Shown here: positions 11,552 to 34,656 of the stretch, in pieces
Position numbering within the stretch: position 1 is the first letter of the stretch
Layout: each line of letters begins with the position of its first letter
Assembly (NCBI RefSeq): GCF_007279655.1
Contig: NZ_QKWN01000004.1
Coordinates: 248,001 to 312,000 of the forward strand
DNA from: Robertkochia solimangrovi
GTDB lineage: Bacteria; Bacteroidota; Bacteroidia; Flavobacteriales; Flavobacteriaceae
DNA length: 64,000 nucleotides
Direction: 5' to 3'
Position numbers and translations under genes: made by a program
Notes under the pieces: generated by a model
Databases searched by the model: none
The model's input: only the letters and a program-made list of their open reading frames with translations
Told to the model about the DNA's origin: nothing

Positions 11552-12634
11552 TTATCTTTTAAGAATCTTTTCCTGATGGTTAATGGATTCCTGGTGGATC
11601 GCCTTGAAAATTCTAAGAACAAACTCTTCACTAAGTCCGCGCTGTTCACCTTCAAGAATCATTTTCCCTAAGATCTCATTCCATCGTTTCGACTGAAGAA
11701 CCGCAACGTTTTTCGATTTCTTAAGTCCACCGATCTCATCAGCTATTCGCATACGCTTTCCTAAGGTATCGATAAGACTATTATCGATAACATCGATCTG
11801 AGCTCTAAGAAGATTTAGCTTAGAATTGTATTCTGCTTCCTCATCAGTCTCTTTACGGATCTTAAGATCTTTCATGATCTGAACAAGACGCTCCGGAGTC
11901 ACTTGTTGCGCGGCATCACTCCAGGCATTATCCGGATCACAGTGCGTTTCGATCATCAATCCGTCGAAATTAAGATCCAAAGCAGTTTGAGAAACATCAA
12001 AAATCATATCTCGCTTCCCAGTGATATGCGACGGATCACAGATCAAAGGAAGGTCAGGGAATTTATTTTGAAGTTCGATTGCCAGCTGCCACTCCGGAAT
12101 ATTACGATACTTACTTTTTTCATAGGTAGAGAATCCTCTATGGATCACACCCAGATTCTTGATATCGCTCTTGTAAAGTCTTTCAACACCACCTAACCAT
12201 AACGACAGGTCCGGATTAACAGGGTTCTTCAGTAAGATGATCTTGTCGGTACCTTTAAGAGCGTCAGCGATATCCTGAACGATAAACGGACTAACGGTAG
12301 AGCGAGCCCCGATCCAAAGGATATCGATATCATGCTCAAGCGCAAGTTCCACATGAGCTCTGTTCGCAACCTCAGTAGCGGTTTTTAAACCTGTTTCCTC
12401 TTTTACTTTCTGCAACCACTTTAGTCCTATAGCACCAACACCTTCGAAGTTACCTGGTCTTGTTCTTGGTTTCCAAATCCCGGCTCTGAAGTAATTTACG
12501 TCAGTATCTTTTAAAGAGTGAGCAATTTTTAATACCTGATCTTCTGTTTCTGCACTACATGGCCCTGCTATAACCAGGGGATGATCCAGGTTAAGTTCAT
12601 CTAACCATGTTCTCAATACGGGTGAATTTTCCAT
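11552..12634 (-). CDS. Bifunctional DAHP synthase / chorismate mutase
   Basis: This 360-residue fusion makes the first committed shikimate-pathway compound from PEP and erythrose 4-phosphate, and also converts chorismate to prephenate. Residues 1-260 are a type I-beta DAHP synthase without a regulatory N-terminal domain (AGPCSAET near 19-26, KPRTRPGNFEG, LICDPSHITGKR, METHCDPDNAWSDA). Residues about 270-360 are an AroQ-type chorismate mutase (RAQIDVIDNSLIDTLGKRM). This order resembles the Prevotella enzyme in which prephenate regulates through the mutase domain (known for that homologue). It is the last gene of the attenuator-controlled operon, 9 nt after tyrA. Confidence 0.95.
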   Translation of the reverse strand: MENSPVLRTWLDELNLDHPLVIAGPCSAETEDQVLKIAHSLKDTDVNYFRAGIWKPRTRPGNFEGVGAIGLKWLQKVKEETGLKTATEVANRAHVELALEHDIDILWIGARSTVSPFIVQDIADALKGTDKIILLKNPVNPDLSLWLGGVERLYKSDIKNLGVIHRGFSTYEKSKYRNIPEWQLAIELQNKFPDLPLICDPSHITGKRDMIFDVSQTALDLNFDGLMIETHCDPDNAWSDAAQQVTPERLVQIMKDLKIRKETDEEAEYNSKLNLLRAQIDVIDNSLIDTLGKRMRIADEIGGLKKSKNVAVLQSKRWNEILGKMILEGEQRGLSEEFVLRIFKAIHQESINHQEKILKR

Positions 12635-12643
12635 CGTTTTTAG

Positions 12644-13504
12644 TTACGTTGTTTTAATTGAAATTCCTTTTAATATATCTTTTATTCTATTTGTATCTGC
12701 CATTTCACGGTAAATAGCATCGAAATCTTCTTTTTCCATGAGATCCTTGAACTGCTGAAGATTCTGGATATATTCATCCAGTGTCTCGATCACATTCTCT
12801 TTGTTGAGTTCAAAGATAGGTTGCCACATCGCCGGAGAACTTTTCGCAAGTCTTACCGTACTTTCGAAACCACTTCCCGCCATATCGAAGATATCACGTT
12901 CGTTCTTTTCTTTCTCTATAACGGTCTTCCCCAACATGAAGGAACTGATATGTGATAGATGAGAAACATAAGCTATATGTTTATCATGAGCGTTCGGCTC
13001 CATATAACGGATTCTCATACCCAGATCATAAAAGATCTTCATCGCTTTTTCCTGTAATTTGAAAGCGGTCTTTTCCACCTCACAAATGATATTGGTCTTT
13101 CCTTTGTACAGATTCGGTATCGCAGCGGAAGGACCGGAGTATTCTGTACCTGCTATCGGATGAGTAGCAAGAAAATTTCTCCGACGGGGATGCTCACTCA
13201 ACAAAGAGCAGATATTTGATTTTGTCGAACCCACATCGATCACCAGTGCTTCATCATTCACCTTCTCCAATACTTCCGGCACTACTTTCAATGCAGCATT
13301 TACCGGAACTGAGACGATGACCATATCTGCTTTATGGAGCTCATCAAATTCAGCTTTCTCATCGATCAGTCCGAGCGTCAAGGCTTCATCCAGGTGATCC
13401 GGATTATTATCGATTCCGAAAATTCTGAAATCCTCATTCAGATTCCGGATATCGATCGCCATCGAACCTCCAATAAGCCCTAATCCTATTACAAACAAAT
13501 TCAT
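12644..13504 (-). CDS. tyrA: Prephenate dehydrogenase
   Basis: TyrA oxidises and decarboxylates prephenate to 4-hydroxyphenylpyruvate for tyrosine. This 286-residue form has the N-terminal NAD-binding Rossmann motif GLGLIGGSMA (7-16) and the THPIAGTEYSGP substrate block at about 114-125. It also has the helical dimerisation domain with HIAYVSHLSHISSFML. There is no C-terminal ACT domain and no fused chorismate mutase, because the mutase is on the next gene. It lies 3 nt after the aminotransferase gene, in tight operon spacing. Confidence 0.95.
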   Translation of the reverse strand: MNLFVIGLGLIGGSMAIDIRNLNEDFRIFGIDNNPDHLDEALTLGLIDEKAEFDELHKADMVIVSVPVNAALKVVPEVLEKVNDEALVIDVGSTKSNICSLLSEHPRRRNFLATHPIAGTEYSGPSAAIPNLYKGKTNIICEVEKTAFKLQEKAMKIFYDLGMRIRYMEPNAHDKHIAYVSHLSHISSFMLGKTVIEKEKNERDIFDMAGSGFESTVRLAKSSPAMWQPIFELNKENVIETLDEYIQNLQQFKDLMEKEDFDAIYREMADTNRIKDILKGISIKTT

Positions 13505-13507
13505 ATG

Positions 13508-14680
13508 CTATTCTTGTATACTTACTTTTGCATGTTTAATTCTTTCTATCGCCTCTTCGATCTTATCTTCTTTCACACAAAGGGAGAAGCGAATATATCC
13601 TTCACCGTTTTTTCCGAAGATTGTACCTGGGGTAATAAATACATTTTGTTCCTGCAGAATCTTATCGATGTAAGCTTCTGCCGAGGTAACACCCTTCGGT
13701 AATTTGGCCCATACGAACATTCCTGTAGCATCTTTGCTATACTCACAGCCTAGCTCTTCACATAGTTTATAGATCAGCTTTCTCCTTTTATGGTAAATTC
13801 TGTTGAGATCAGCATACCATTGTGAAGAAAGCTCAAGTGCCTTCACAGCTCCTTTCTGAATTCCATAGAACATCCCGCTATCCATATTGCTTTTCACTTT
13901 GAGTACAGCATCGATCAGTGAACTTGCTCCCAGAACGAAACCAACACGCCAACCCGCCATATTAAAGGTCTTACTTAGGGAATTCAACTCAAGCACGACC
14001 CCTGCAGCTCCGGGCACCTCCAGTATACTTACCGGCTCATTATTCAGCACAAAACTGTAAGGGTTATCATTAACAAGCAAAATATCATGCTTTCTTGCAA
14101 AGGCGATTATTTTAGCAAAATCTTCTGTGGTTGCCACTGCCCCCGTAGGCATATGCGGATAACTTAGCCACATAATTTTGACCTTACTCAGGTCTTGTTT
14201 TTCAAGCGCCTCCAGATCAGGCAACCATCCATTTTCAGCAACCAGATCATAATATCTCGGTTCTGCTTCCACCAATCGGGTTACCGAGGTATACGTTGGA
14301 TATCCTGGATCCGGGATAAGTACCTCATCACCCTTATTCAGGAAAGCCATGGAGATATGCATAATCCCCTCTTTAGAACCCATAAGTGGAAGAATCTCTT
14401 TATCCGGATCAAGTTCCACCTGAAAGAATCGCTTGTAAAACTTCGCAACACCCTGACGTAATTCAGGAAGGCCCTGATAATTTTGATACTGATGGGCATT
14501 ACTGTCTTCCAGCGCATGTACAAGCGCATCCATCACTACAGGTGCAGGAGCGAGGTCCGGACTTCCGATCCCCATATTGATCACCGGTTTACCTTCGGCA
14601 ACCATAGCTCTCACCTCTCTCAGTTTTCTTGAGAAATAATACTCCTCAATATGACCCAGTCGATCTGCTGTTGCTATCAT
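13508..14680 (-). CDS. Class I/II PLP-dependent aminotransferase (probably aromatic)
   Basis: This 390-residue fold-type I aminotransferase has the PLP lysine at K237 (NSLSKTFNMAGWR). It also has the conserved NDNPYS asparagine-proline block near 205, and GIGSPD at 37-42. Family members are often annotated as aspartate or LL-diaminopimelate aminotransferases. Its place between pheA and tyrA argues for the final transamination to Phe and Tyr (inference). The start ATG overlaps the pheA stop as TAATG, indicating translational coupling. Confidence 0.9.
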   Translation of the reverse strand: MIATADRLGHIEEYYFSRKLREVRAMVAEGKPVINMGIGSPDLAPAPVVMDALVHALEDSNAHQYQNYQGLPELRQGVAKFYKRFFQVELDPDKEILPLMGSKEGIMHISMAFLNKGDEVLIPDPGYPTYTSVTRLVEAEPRYYDLVAENGWLPDLEALEKQDLSKVKIMWLSYPHMPTGAVATTEDFAKIIAFARKHDILLVNDNPYSFVLNNEPVSILEVPGAAGVVLELNSLSKTFNMAGWRVGFVLGASSLIDAVLKVKSNMDSGMFYGIQKGAVKALELSSQWYADLNRIYHKRRKLIYKLCEELGCEYSKDATGMFVWAKLPKGVTSAEAYIDKILQEQNVFITPGTIFGKNGEGYIRFSLCVKEDKIEEAIERIKHAKVSIQE

Positions 14681-15504
14681 TATTTTGCATTTTTATATTC
14701 ACCATGTACTTTAAACTGTTCTGCCATAATCTTCAGAATAGCCTTTGCTTTTTCAAAATCCGCATAACGATCGAAGGTCACATCCACGAAAAAGGCATAT
14801 TTCCATGGAGTCTCGATCTTCGGAAGGGATTGAATCTTCGTCAAACTCAGTTTGCAATCACTCATTACATTGAGTACTGCCGCAAGGCTGCCTCTTTTAT
14901 GATCCAATTCAAATTGTAAAGACGCCTTATTGATCGCTTCCTGCGGTATCACAGAATTCTGCCGTTGCACGATCACGAAACGCGTTGCATTATTCTTGAT
15001 CGTCTGGATCTCAGAAGCCAGAATATTCAAGTCAAAGATCTCGGCAGCGGTCCGGCTGGCAATAGCACCTACCCCACTCAATTTATTAGTATGAATCCTT
15101 CTGGCCGTTTCAGCGGTATCAGCATCCTCCACAAGTTTGATATGGGGATAATCTTTAAAGAACTTTTTACATTGCAATAAAGCCATGGGGTGCGAAAAGA
15201 CCTCTCGAATATCTCCGATCGACTGACCGTTCAATGCCATCAGATTATGATGTACATTAATATAATGCTCTCCGATGATATGTAACTTATTAGCATCGAT
15301 CAAAGCATAGTTCGGGATTATGGACCCGGCAATGGAGTTCTCGATAGCCATAACCGCACTTTCGGCACGACCATCAAACAAGCTTTCCACCAGATCATCG
15401 AAAGATAAACACTCGACTACAGACACATCAGTACCGAAATATTCCTTGGCTACCTGATGGTGGAATGACCCTAAAACTCCCTGAATTGCAATATTTTTAC
15501 TCAT
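14680..15504 (-). CDS. pheA: Prephenate dehydratase
   Basis: PheA converts prephenate to phenylpyruvate for phenylalanine. With the ATG at 15504 it has 274 residues: a bilobed dehydratase domain (1-180) with the catalytic TRF motif (T174-F176), then an ACT domain (about 195-274). The open frame reaches further upstream, but that part would run through the attenuator hairpin, so the later ATG is chosen. In the ACT domain the usual ESRP Phe-binding motif reads QSLP (about 225-228), which may weaken or change feedback inhibition. It is the first structural gene behind the leader peptide and terminator. Confidence 0.95.
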   Translation of the reverse strand: MSKNIAIQGVLGSFHHQVAKEYFGTDVSVVECLSFDDLVESLFDGRAESAVMAIENSIAGSIIPNYALIDANKLHIIGEHYINVHHNLMALNGQSIGDIREVFSHPMALLQCKKFFKDYPHIKLVEDADTAETARRIHTNKLSGVGAIASRTAAEIFDLNILASEIQTIKNNATRFVIVQRQNSVIPQEAINKASLQFELDHKRGSLAAVLNVMSDCKLSLTKIQSLPKIETPWKYAFFVDVTFDRYADFEKAKAILKIMAEQFKVHGEYKNAK

Positions 15505-15512
15505 TTTATGAT

Positions 15513-15543
15513 AAAAAAAAAGTCCCGATCTAAACCGGGACTT
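15513..15543 (-). terminator. Attenuator terminator hairpin before pheA
   Basis: On the minus strand AAGTCCCG (15536-15543) and CGGGACTT (15520-15527) form an 8-bp stem with an 8-nt loop, followed by a run of U at 15513-15519. It lies between the leader-peptide stop and the pheA ATG at 15504, so it would stop transcription before the operon unless the antiterminator forms. Confidence 0.88.
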
Positions 15544-15581
15544 CATATATATTGTTAATCACAAATAACTATACAGGTCCC
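15537..15581 (-). promoter_or_regulatory. Predicted antiterminator pairing
   Basis: GGGAC (15577-15581), within the last codons of the leader ORF, is complementary to GTCCC (15537-15541) in the 5' arm of the terminator. With a bulge the pairing extends into CUGUAUA/UAUAUxGAA. This hairpin and the terminator are mutually exclusive. A ribosome at the leader stop codon would cover the first arm. One stalled at the Phe codons would leave it free. Confidence 0.65.
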
Positions 15582-15646
15582 TGTTCCTCCTTAAAAAAAT
15601 AAAAGAAGAAATAAAAAGACGACCAGATATAAAAATTTGTATTCAT
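15569..15646 (-). CDS. Phe/Tyr-rich leader peptide of the aromatic operon
   Basis: This 25-codon ORF starts at ATG 15646 and stops with TAG at 15571-15569. It encodes Phe at positions 5, 11, 13, 14, 15, 17 and 18, Tyr at 6, 12 and 16, and Trp at 8. Eight consecutive codons (11-18) encode only Phe or Tyr. It lies 65 nt upstream of pheA, with an antiterminator arm at its end and a terminator after it. This is the classical architecture of ribosome-mediated transcription attenuation: scarcity of charged tRNA-Phe (or tRNA-Tyr) stalls the ribosome and lets RNA polymerase read on. The arrangement is seen directly; the mechanism is inferred. Confidence 0.85.
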   Translation of the reverse strand: MNTNFYIWSSFYFFFYFFKEEQGPV

Positions 15647-15664
15647 GTGTTACTTAATTCGTTG

Positions 15665-15694
15665 CTAATGTAATTATTAATTTTTAATCTCAAA
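15665..15694 (-). promoter_or_regulatory. Probable promoter of the aromatic operon
   Basis: On the minus strand TTTG (15691-15694) is followed after 18 nt by TACATTAG (15665-15672), matching seven of eight positions of TAnnTTTG. The transcript would begin about 10 nt before the leader-peptide ATG. Confidence 0.5.
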
Positions 15695-15835: not shown

Positions 15836-16738
15836 ATGTCCATCACAGTTCAGAACATCACAAAAACCTACGGACTTCAAAAGGCACTTAACGAGGTGTC
15901 CTTCGAATTGAAGAAAGGCGAAGTGGTTGGATTCCTTGGGCCTAACGGCGCCGGAAAGTCCACGTTGATGAAAATACTTACCACCTACCTTCAACCTGAT
16001 TCCGGATCAGCTAAGGTGGCAGGACATGACATTGCTGAAGACACAATTTCCGTACGAAAAAATATCGGCTATCTCGCTGAGCATAATCCGTTGTATCTGG
16101 ATATGTATGTAAAGGAATATCTGAATTTTCAGGCTGATGCCTATAAGGTATCTAAGTCCCGGGTTGCAGCTGTAATAGAGCAAACCGGACTCACGCCGGA
16201 AGCAGGTAAAAAGATCAAGGCACTTTCGAAAGGATACCGTCAACGTGTTGGTCTCGCAGCAGCACTCTTACACGACCCTGAAGTACTGATCCTGGACGAA
16301 CCTACCACTGGCCTTGACCCCAATCAACTTATCGAAATCCGTGAACTGATCAGAGGTATTGGAAGATCGAAGACCATTTTACTCTCCACACATATCATGC
16401 AGGAAGTTGAAGCGGTTTGTGATCGCGTTATCTTCATCAAAAAAGGAACCATCGTTGCCGATAAAAATCTAGACACCCTTAAAAAGGATCAGGAACAGAT
16501 TCTGGAAGTTGCCTTTGATTACCGAATTGAAGAAGTACTTTTACAAAACTTACCGCATGTGAACCGAGTTCATAACATTACAGGATTTGTTTATGAAATC
16601 CATTTCAGCACAAGGGAAGATATGCGTCCTAAAGTATTTGATTTCGCCTATGACAACGGACTAAAGATCTTGCAGCTGAATCAGAAGAATAAGAACCTCG
16701 AAAAGCTATTCTTCGAGCTGACTTCCGATCATTCGTAG
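15836..16738 (+). CDS. gldA: Gliding-motility-associated ABC transporter ATP-binding protein GldA
   Basis: This 300-residue ABC ATPase closely follows the GldA type. It has a Walker A GPNGAGKST at about 35-43, the LMKILTTYLQPDSG run after it, the NIGYLAEHNPLYLDMYV block, signature LSKGYRQRVGLAAALLHDP near 137-155, and Walker B LILDEPTTGLDP. In Flavobacterium GldA acts with membrane proteins GldF and GldG in gliding and is encoded apart from them. Neither gldF nor gldG is in this window. It is divergent from the aromatic operon and convergent with the lipoprotein gene, overlapping its end by 10 nt. The name is based on recognised sequence similarity. Confidence 0.88.
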   Translation: MSITVQNITKTYGLQKALNEVSFELKKGEVVGFLGPNGAGKSTLMKILTTYLQPDSGSAKVAGHDIAEDTISVRKNIGYLAEHNPLYLDMYVKEYLNFQADAYKVSKSRVAAVIEQTGLTPEAGKKIKALSKGYRQRVGLAAALLHDPEVLILDEPTTGLDPNQLIEIRELIRGIGRSKTILLSTHIMQEVEAVCDRVIFIKKGTIVADKNLDTLKKDQEQILEVAFDYRIEEVLLQNLPHVNRVHNITGFVYEIHFSTREDMRPKVFDFAYDNGLKILQLNQKNKNLEKLFFELTSDHS

Positions 16739-23446: not shown

Positions 23447-23571
23447 GATCAATTAATTATTAGTAATCGGAATTACGCCGATTTCGCAACCATTTTATCT
23501 TCGACGCTGCCAAAGACAAGGTAATTATCAATTATATCGTATCAAGAAAAATAGGGAAAACTGCCGGAGTT

Positions 23572-23667
23572 GTTATCTTTCCTAGTTTGGTAGAATGTAG
23601 CACCTTCTCTGGAGCAGAGGGTTGCTAAGGCTTCAACGGGTCTAATCCCTTCACCTTTCTTGATAAC
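23572..23667 (-). promoter_or_regulatory. SAM-I (S-box) riboswitch upstream of split metH
   Basis: The minus-strand RNA has a P1 stem GTTATC/GATAAC (23662-23667 with 23572-23577). It also carries the conserved core: AAGAAAGGTGAAGGG, then GAAGCCTTAGCAACC, then AAGGTGCTAC. These match the SAM-I family, which represses methionine genes when SAM is abundant. About 125 nt separate P1 from the metH ATG, and I see no strong terminator or anti-SD there, so the expression platform is not obvious. Confidence 0.92.
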
Positions 23668-23692
23668 TTCATAATAAAAATGAACTTTGGTG

Positions 23693-32985: not shown

Positions 32986-33088
32986 CTTTCAAAAATTTAC
33001 GATTATCAATAGTCTGAACGAATACCGTTTAGATCGTGAGTAATTGTTATGCAGGCAAGAAAGGTTGAAATTCAGGAGAAGAATCAAT

Positions 33089-33188
33089 TGTTATCTATCC
33101 TCAATGAGGTAGAACGTAGCACCTTCTTTAATGGTAAAGGGTTGCTAAGGCATCATCAGGTCTATTCCTTCCGCCTTTCTTGATAACA
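33089..33188 (-). promoter_or_regulatory. SAM-I (S-box) riboswitch upstream of metX-thrA
   Basis: P1 is TGTTATC/GATAACA (33182-33188 with 33089-33095). The conserved core follows in order: AAGAAAGGCGGAAGG, GATGCCTTAGCAACC, and AAGGTGCTAC. The TTG start is about 100 nt downstream and no clear intrinsic terminator lies between. High SAM should reduce expression of the homoserine/methionine/sulfur operon. Confidence 0.92.
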
Positions 33189-33191
33189 TGA

Positions 33192-34548: not shown

Positions 34549-34656
34549 GGGAGCGATCTGACGTAGCCGTCTAAAGAAGATTATCACCGGGAACGGCGAT
34601 AACTGCTTTAGCATTTTTTAATGAGGTTGCAATCAGTCAAATCTATCCTCTGAAAT
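34549..34656 (-). promoter_or_regulatory. Structured 5' leader of metK
   Basis: About 130 nt separate the promoter from the ATG. On the minus strand CTAAAG/CTTTAG (34606-34611 with 34571-34576) encloses TTATCGCC/GGTGATAA (34595-34602 with 34581-34588; loop GTTCCC). A GACG/CGTC hairpin and the CTCCCTGC segment follow. It does not carry the SAM-I core found twice nearby. A regulatory RNA is plausible for metK but unproven; I cannot assign it to a known class. Confidence 0.45.

Follow-up and report, generated by a model that had tools for sequence, protein, structure and literature searches.

A Phe/Tyr-rich leader ORF and covarying alternative hairpins upstream of pheA point to ribosome-mediated attenuation of an aromatic amino-acid operon in Flavobacteriaceae

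The window, i.e., the whole 64-kb stretch of Robertkochia solimangrovi DNA that was analysed, carries on its minus strand four consecutive genes of aromatic amino-acid synthesis, and Pfam bears out the content pheA–aminotransferase–tyrA–DAHP synthase/chorismate mutase first proposed for this operon. The prephenate dehydratase gene pheA (14680–15504; PF00800, 191 bits, over the cut-off) starts with an ATG at 15504–15502; its best NCBIfam model is also prephenate dehydratase, with a score under the model cut-off, and the pheA queries started at 15507, one codon 5' of this ATG. An alternative pheA start from the automatic ORF call, ATG 15546, is unlikely, as it sits at the foot of the terminator described below. 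The class I/II aminotransferase gene (13508–14680; PF00155, 234 bits) has no NCBIfam model over cut-off among the matches listed (25 of 73), and, judged by context, its product may serve Phe and Tyr. The models that score highest for this aminotransferase are those of LL-diaminopimelate aminotransferase, all under cut-off. By comparison, the prephenate dehydrogenase gene tyrA (12644–13504; PF02153 and PF20463) matches NF006307 over cut-off and is alone among the four genes in passing an NCBIfam cut-off. The last gene (11552–12634) encodes a DAHP synthase/chorismate mutase fusion with PF00793 and PF01817 over cut-off, for which NCBIfam DAHP synthase models rank first with scores under cut-off. 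Pfam and NCBIfam searches found this operon copy as the single DAHP synthase of the genome; the second PF00793 match of the genome was rejected as a DAHP synthase, being KdsA by NCBIfam, and PF01474 has no match in the genome. Elsewhere on the minus strand of the window, Rfam places two SAM (S-box) riboswitches (23570–23669 and 33088–33189) and one SAM-II riboswitch (34598–34656), i.e., three SAM riboswitches in all, from two Rfam families, in one 64-kb window.

A leader ORF that is conserved 5' of pheA lies at 15569–15646 of the minus strand and runs from ATG to a TAG stop, encoding MNTNFYIWSSFYFFFYFFKEEQGPV, with 7 Phe, 3 Tyr and 1 Trp in 25 codons plus stop. Our reading of the minus strand confirms the ORF length, the Phe and Tyr counts and the unbroken Phe/Tyr codons 11–18 of the original prediction, whose codon inventory had missed the Trp at codon 8. 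These eight consecutive codons (15593–15616) form the proposed sensor, region 1, and the Trp codon (UGG, 15623–15625) is a possible third sensor codon. The run is followed by a purine-rich spacer containing AAGGAGG (15586–15592) and by region 2, GGGAC (15577–15581, codons 22–24), the putative 5' arm of an antiterminator. On the promoter side, TACATTAG at 15665–15672 of the minus strand matches the flavobacterial -7 box, to which we assign it on the assumption of a TAnnTTTG-like consensus. Among the 115 dereplicated leaders described below, TAnnTTnG occurs within 60 nt 5' of the leader ATG in 106, as compared with 12% of shuffles, and the median distance from its T to the leader ATG is 26 nt, the same as in the window; transcription presumably starts 12–14 nt or so 5' of the leader ATG.

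Between the leader TAG and pheA, an AU-rich spacer leads into an intrinsic terminator, a stem-loop plus U-run at 15513–15544 (minus strand) found by terminator scan and folding. Its stem (15544–15519) comprises 11 pairs including two G-U pairs, with the 8-bp core AAGUCCCG/CGGGACUU and a U-run extending to 15513, and folds at -15.0 kcal/mol (z -4.29). The region contains two terminator-like sites, of which this is one, as compared with a mean of 0.2 in shuffles. The terminator has no adjacent upstream gene to end, because the next gene, an ABC transporter gene at 15836–16738 on the plus strand, is divergent from the pheA operon, and the nearest upstream minus-strand gene ends at 16729, more than 1 kb from the leader. 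The terminator 5' arm is region 3 (GUCCC, 15537–15541), which could also serve as the antiterminator 3' arm, and its 3' arm is region 4 (CGGGAC, 15522–15527). The GGGAC complementary to the 5' arm of an 8-bp terminator, as originally described, is found at 15581–15577, with the 8-bp core lying within the longer 11-pair stem. The region 2:3 pairing of the window is 5 bp long, and its segment (-10.5 kcal/mol, z -1.57) is weaker than the terminator (-15.0 kcal/mol) and than that of the median relative (-13.4 kcal/mol).

The aromatic leader is a regular companion of pheA in the family. A locus was scored as having a leader when at least 5 of 8 neighbouring codons were F/Y/W within a short ATG ORF starting at most 300 nt upstream. 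The conserved Phe/Tyr codon run anticipated by the original prediction was found by this test at 145 of 150 pheA loci, as compared with 11 of 569 other ORF starts; at a stricter 6-of-8 threshold, none of the 569 control starts passes. The controls were ORFs of at least 150 codons on both strands of 80 named loci, some of which are perhaps not real genes, and one pass (L071) rests on the wrong ORF, the true leader being nevertheless present. By genome, 45 of 60 relatives have a pheA match, and 40 of these 45 carry an aromatic-rich leader ORF within 300 nt upstream; a further one of the 45, L020, has its leader farther out. The five failing loci are L024, L038, L044, L045 and L020, the last with a displaced leader. 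At L020, the leader and terminator lie about 500 nt 5' of pheA, with repeated sequence between. The five failing loci and L071 were left out before terminator scoring, and a fixed rule placed a terminator after 143 of the 144 leaders tested, missing that of L042; the terminator of L040 was wrongly picked by the rule and placed by eye. Since some loci represent one genome from two sources, the 143 leaders that remained without L042 were dereplicated to 115 leaders, or 122 distinct peptides, a step that leaves shared ancestry in the counts. The 80 named loci include 34 titled Flavobacterium and none titled F. psychrophilum, the remainder being other Flavobacteriaceae such as Flagellimonas and Arenibacter, assemblies with broader titles and one with a Rhizobium title. 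The gene order pheA, aminotransferase, tyrA is present in all 80 of them, and 79 of 80 have the DAHP synthase gene too. The Rhizobium-titled locus (L078) is a contig of a Rhizobium sp. MAG whose Flavobacterium-like pheA, 70% identical to the query, has a leader; the bin is perhaps mislabelled or contaminated. At another locus (L043), a single pheA is preceded by two aromatic leaders in tandem, MNNLVSTFRFFGFFFFRKEGAMS and MNQNTQQNFSFFGFFFFKWKSEAVD, both of which have a terminator-like hairpin after them.

Beyond the family, pheA was matched in 42 of 149 genomes of the class; searching the class with PF00800 gave matches in 33 of 119 genomes and added none to these 42. Upstream DNA was scored for 36 loci, as G000, G040, G141 and G299 were already in the set and G348 and G443 were skipped as partial pheA matches. 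The leader is present at 25 and absent at 11 of the 36; outside the family it is found at 24 of 35 (the one within the family being L187). G040, which is the same as L044 and belongs to the same order, has no leader by the test. An ungapped rule finds terminators after 22 of the 25 class-level leaders and none after the other three, and the mean region 2:3 score is 16.8 as compared with 9.6 when shuffled, with low scores of 9–11 at L158, L169 and L182. The distances from codon run to region 2, at 8–24 nt, are more scattered than in the family. These comparisons make it likely, on sparse data, that the element reaches deep into the class. The scope of "a few Bacteroidota" first given to such attenuation proves too narrow, and the element is also partly in print already. 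In addition, a covariance model (R1) matches 111 of 120 genomes at E of at most 0.1, though it was built from the same family and its matches there arise partly by construction; in the window's genome, its one match is the pheA leader element (E 2e-6).

Regions 2, 3 and 4 change together. The arm sets include GGGAC/GUCCC/GGGAC, CGAGAC/GUCUCG/CGAGAC, AGGAUU/AAUCCU/AGGAUU, AGCGGGA/UCCCGCU/AGCGGGA, UCCGGG/CCCGGA/UCCGGG and AAGGCU/AGCCUU/AAGGCU, together with GAGCGGUC/GACCGCUC/GAGCGGUC of L042, read by eye, and in many other leaders G-U pairs preserve one of the two helices. This three-way covariation across several arm classes provides the compensatory changes in both alternative hairpins that would be expected of the proposed switch. 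Pairings were scored by searching for the best complement, which sets the register, with the same freedom given to the swapped and shuffled controls; pair counts were not drawn from the MAFFT alignment A2, because in it the GAGAC class stands one column out of register with GGGAC. Over the 115 leaders, the mean region 2:3 complementarity is 17.5 with the leader's own arm, 12.4 with swapped arms and 9.9 in shuffled leaders, and scores of at least 16 are reached by 79%, 26% (arms swapped between species) and 2.5%, respectively. That swapped arms exceed shuffles is expected, since the arms of different lineages are partly alike. In folds, the 2:3 pairing forms in 113 of 115 segments running from region 2 to region 3, and the terminator forms in 111 of 115 full leaders.

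The codon run lies at a nearly constant distance from region 2. Between the first bases of the last aromatic codon and of region 2, the median is 13 nt (sd 1.5, range 8–17; 14 nt in the window), as compared with an sd of 12.2 in shuffled leaders, in which the search for region 2 likewise began 3 nt after the last aromatic codon. By comparison, the distance from region 2 to the stop codon has an sd of 7.5 and ranges from -25 to +9, with region 2 falling within the final codons of the leader or, in some cases, just past the stop. The definition of the last aromatic codon bars aromatic residues from the next two codons, which makes the zeros at +1 and +2 definitional; the count was therefore redone outward from region 2, and the sharp edge of the aromatic run stands. 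F/Y/W codons occupy the positions 24–22, 21–19, 18–16 and 15–13 nt before region 2 in 113, 115, 115 and 110 of 115 leaders, respectively, the position at 12–10 nt in 35 of 115, that at 9–7 nt in 2 of 108 and that at 6–4 nt in 0 of 108. The majority residues of the last five codons of the run are F, Y, F, F and F. The leading edge of a stalled ribosome lies about +12 nt from the A-site codon; region 2 therefore begins about where a stalled ribosome ends. With the footprint taken from this general background, a ribosome holding the last aromatic codon in its A site leaves 93% of region 2 free. With the stop codon in the A site, a footprint of -15 to +12 covers at least half of region 2 in 85% and all of it in 55% of the 122 peptides, and one of -20 to +12 covers at least half in 100%. 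There are 7 leaders among the 115 in which region 2 begins 7–9 nt past the first base of the stop codon. We take the fixed spacing as the strongest sign, among the features compared here, that the reader of this element would be a ribosome rather than a ligand or a protein.

The spacer from the codon run to region 2 averages 89% purine and, in folds of the leader alone, pairs with the pyrimidine-rich Phe/Tyr run with a mean probability of 0.77. In the window, AAGGAGGAA pairs with the UUCUUCUU part of the codon run. Folds of the full leader have at least 3 bases of region 2 paired upstream in 105 of 115 cases, and the leaders are modestly more stable than shuffles (z averaging -0.76, with 11% below -2). 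The AAGGAGG of the window, singled out in the original prediction, does not represent a conserved Shine-Dalgarno site, and that role was rejected, AGGAGG occurring in 1 of 115 dereplicated leaders. Its likeliest meaning, which these predicted folds suggest and no more, is that of a part of a region 1:2 protector.

What is seen in the sequence, namely a leader ORF, a sharp-edged aromatic run, a terminator, the mutually exclusive 2:3 and 3:4 pairings and a near-constant spacing, makes it very probable in our judgement that the element is a ribosome-mediated transcription attenuator of the trp/pheA type, through which the operon would answer charged tRNA-Phe and tRNA-Tyr, and perhaps tRNA-Trp. 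The attenuator interpretation first offered for this locus is supported by the conserved codon run and by the compensatory change in both hairpins. Transcription would begin about a dozen nucleotides ahead of the leader ATG. When Phe or Tyr is scarce, the ribosome would stop on the run with its leading edge just short of region 2, region 2 would then pair with region 3, and RNA polymerase would read on. A ribosome that passes the run would cover region 2, allowing 3:4 to pair and transcription to end about 9 nt before pheA. If no ribosome arrives, the run would fold on the purine spacer and region 2 as a 1:2 protector, again favouring the terminator. The window's genome also contains a His-run leader at hisG and a Trp-run leader at a trpE-like gene, which support the attenuator reading. 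At the former (L193, C14), the His leader ORF MNTNLSHHHHHIHLLRSGEVI occupies the upstream positions -201 to -135 relative to the hisG match, with a U-tailed hairpin, found by eye, after it and before hisG. At the latter (L190, C3), the Trp leader ORF MRNNINIIWWWSNLRSNS lies at -201 to -144 upstream of the trpE-like match (TIGR00564, under cut-off), with a U-tailed hairpin, also found by eye, between the two.

A further reading holds that the attenuator senses Trp as well as Phe and Tyr and that the UGG ahead of the run is functional as a sensor codon, given that no DAHP synthase was found in the genome outside this operon. Trp is present in 72 of the 122 distinct peptides and makes up 2.6% of leader residues, and 50 of the 122 lack it; among scored Flavobacterium-titled loci it is present in 3 and absent in 30 of 33. 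Asn occupies -8 in 31 of the 122 peptides, whose residue at -9 is always aromatic (21 W, 6 Y and 4 F), although a change from UGG to UAU or UUU takes two substitutions; similarly, of the 15 peptides with Asn at -9, 14 have W, Y or F at -10. By comparison, 52 peptides with N or S at -6 have W at residue -5 in 24 cases and S, T or N in another 24. Both the Trp and the column counts are inflated by shared ancestry. The trpE-like gene of the window's genome has a WWW leader of its own, and Trp-less operons carry the same DAHP synthase gene, which is present in 79 of the 80 named loci. Three-amino-acid sensing may thus be attractive and is unproved, and the evidence on the two sides leaves a working role for the UGG a tentative idea that we somewhat doubt. 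A broader proposal is that one leader reads Phe, Tyr and Trp and sets the branch enzymes together with the only entry enzyme, that this design is ancestral in Bacteroidia, and that the 13-nt ruler implies a first ribosome trailing RNA polymerase closely enough to control termination, in a group with ribosomes that ignore Shine-Dalgarno sites; taken as a whole, we consider it unlikely.

A riboswitch or T-box that selects the hairpin, with the short ORF incidental, would look alike in having a terminator plus a competing helix. However, no Rfam family reaches its gathering score at the pheA leader, T-box and known riboswitches included, and regions 2 and 3 are separated by a short (median 37 nt, 31–44 nt for the middle 90%), weakly structured spacer, with an extra AU-rich helix that is itself weak (mean z -0.89). 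Conservation falls on the aromatic codons and their constant spacing from region 2, and we regard such a ligand-read or tRNA-read switch as very improbable. Equally improbable to us is that the leader acts without attenuation and boosts pheA translation through re-initiation. One study has proposed re-initiation after short leader genes, with a Bacteroidetes peak at a distance of 11–14 bp (PMC4833913), whereas the leader stop lies 64 nt from the pheA ATG here and about 50–170 nt from the pheA match in other loci with a leader, with a terminator between. A chance origin, in which AT-rich DNA yields Phe/Tyr-rich ORFs and terminators find some complement upstream, would draw on the T-rich codon run and the AT-rich region but is refuted to near certainty, because the leader is conserved (145 of 150 pheA loci versus 11 of 569 control starts) and the arms covary beyond the arm-swap and shuffle controls for region 2:3.

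The ribosome-mediated attenuator, as the preferred reading, suggests that one switch sets aromatic supply at both the entry and the branch points. Because such attenuation works only if a ribosome follows RNA polymerase at short range, the conserved ruler would offer a ready test of transcription–translation coupling in Bacteroidota, whose ribosomes are reported, in the portion of that work consulted, not to recognise Shine-Dalgarno sites (PMC9976891). Amino-acid leader peptides were described in one account as known only from Proteobacteria and Actinobacteria, to which Firmicutes were added (PMC2965389, 2010). In B. thetaiotaomicron, Table 7 of one report gives a putative attenuator before pheA>hisHb>aroAIbeta-aroQ>tyrA (PMC1173090, 2005), an operon of the same gene set and phylum as that of the window but with a different gene order; the attenuator comes from a prediction database, and the passages concerned give no leader peptide. 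Long 5' UTRs of the same species are described, in an excerpt, as containing short ORFs reminiscent of leader peptides (PMC7366714, 2020). For F. psychrophilum, the relevant section of a transcriptome study presents a structured, conserved 5' element before pheA that lacks Rfam hits and recurs in further genera of the Flavobacteriaceae; the section also describes strong clues to leader-peptide attenuation at amino-acid operons (PMC9723704, 2021). The 5' element concerns the same gene and family as ours, and the section gives no leader sequence, covariation or spacing. No account of the pheA leader peptide described here, its three-way covariation, fixed spacing or Trp codons was found in the literature searched, a search with most subscription papers and supplements outside its reach. 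The element is thus partly reported already, and the mechanism now appears well supported by comparison. Since no Rfam model reaches threshold here, the sequences at hand are now enough for building an RNA family.

Among known systems, the leader of E. coli and Salmonella pheA (pheL) is close in design, as it likewise combines a Phe-rich leader ORF, a choice between 2:3 and 3:4 pairing and an intrinsic terminator before pheA. Membership of the window element in the Rfam family Phe_leader (RF01859) was rejected, at 18.2 bits as compared with a gathering score of 55. Unlike pheL, the leader of the window mixes Phe and Tyr codons, often with Trp in relatives, and precedes pheA, tyrA and the entry enzyme together. 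In reading several amino acids made by one operon, it would resemble the multivalent leader of E. coli ilvGMEDA, but the amino acids concerned there are branched-chain rather than aromatic.
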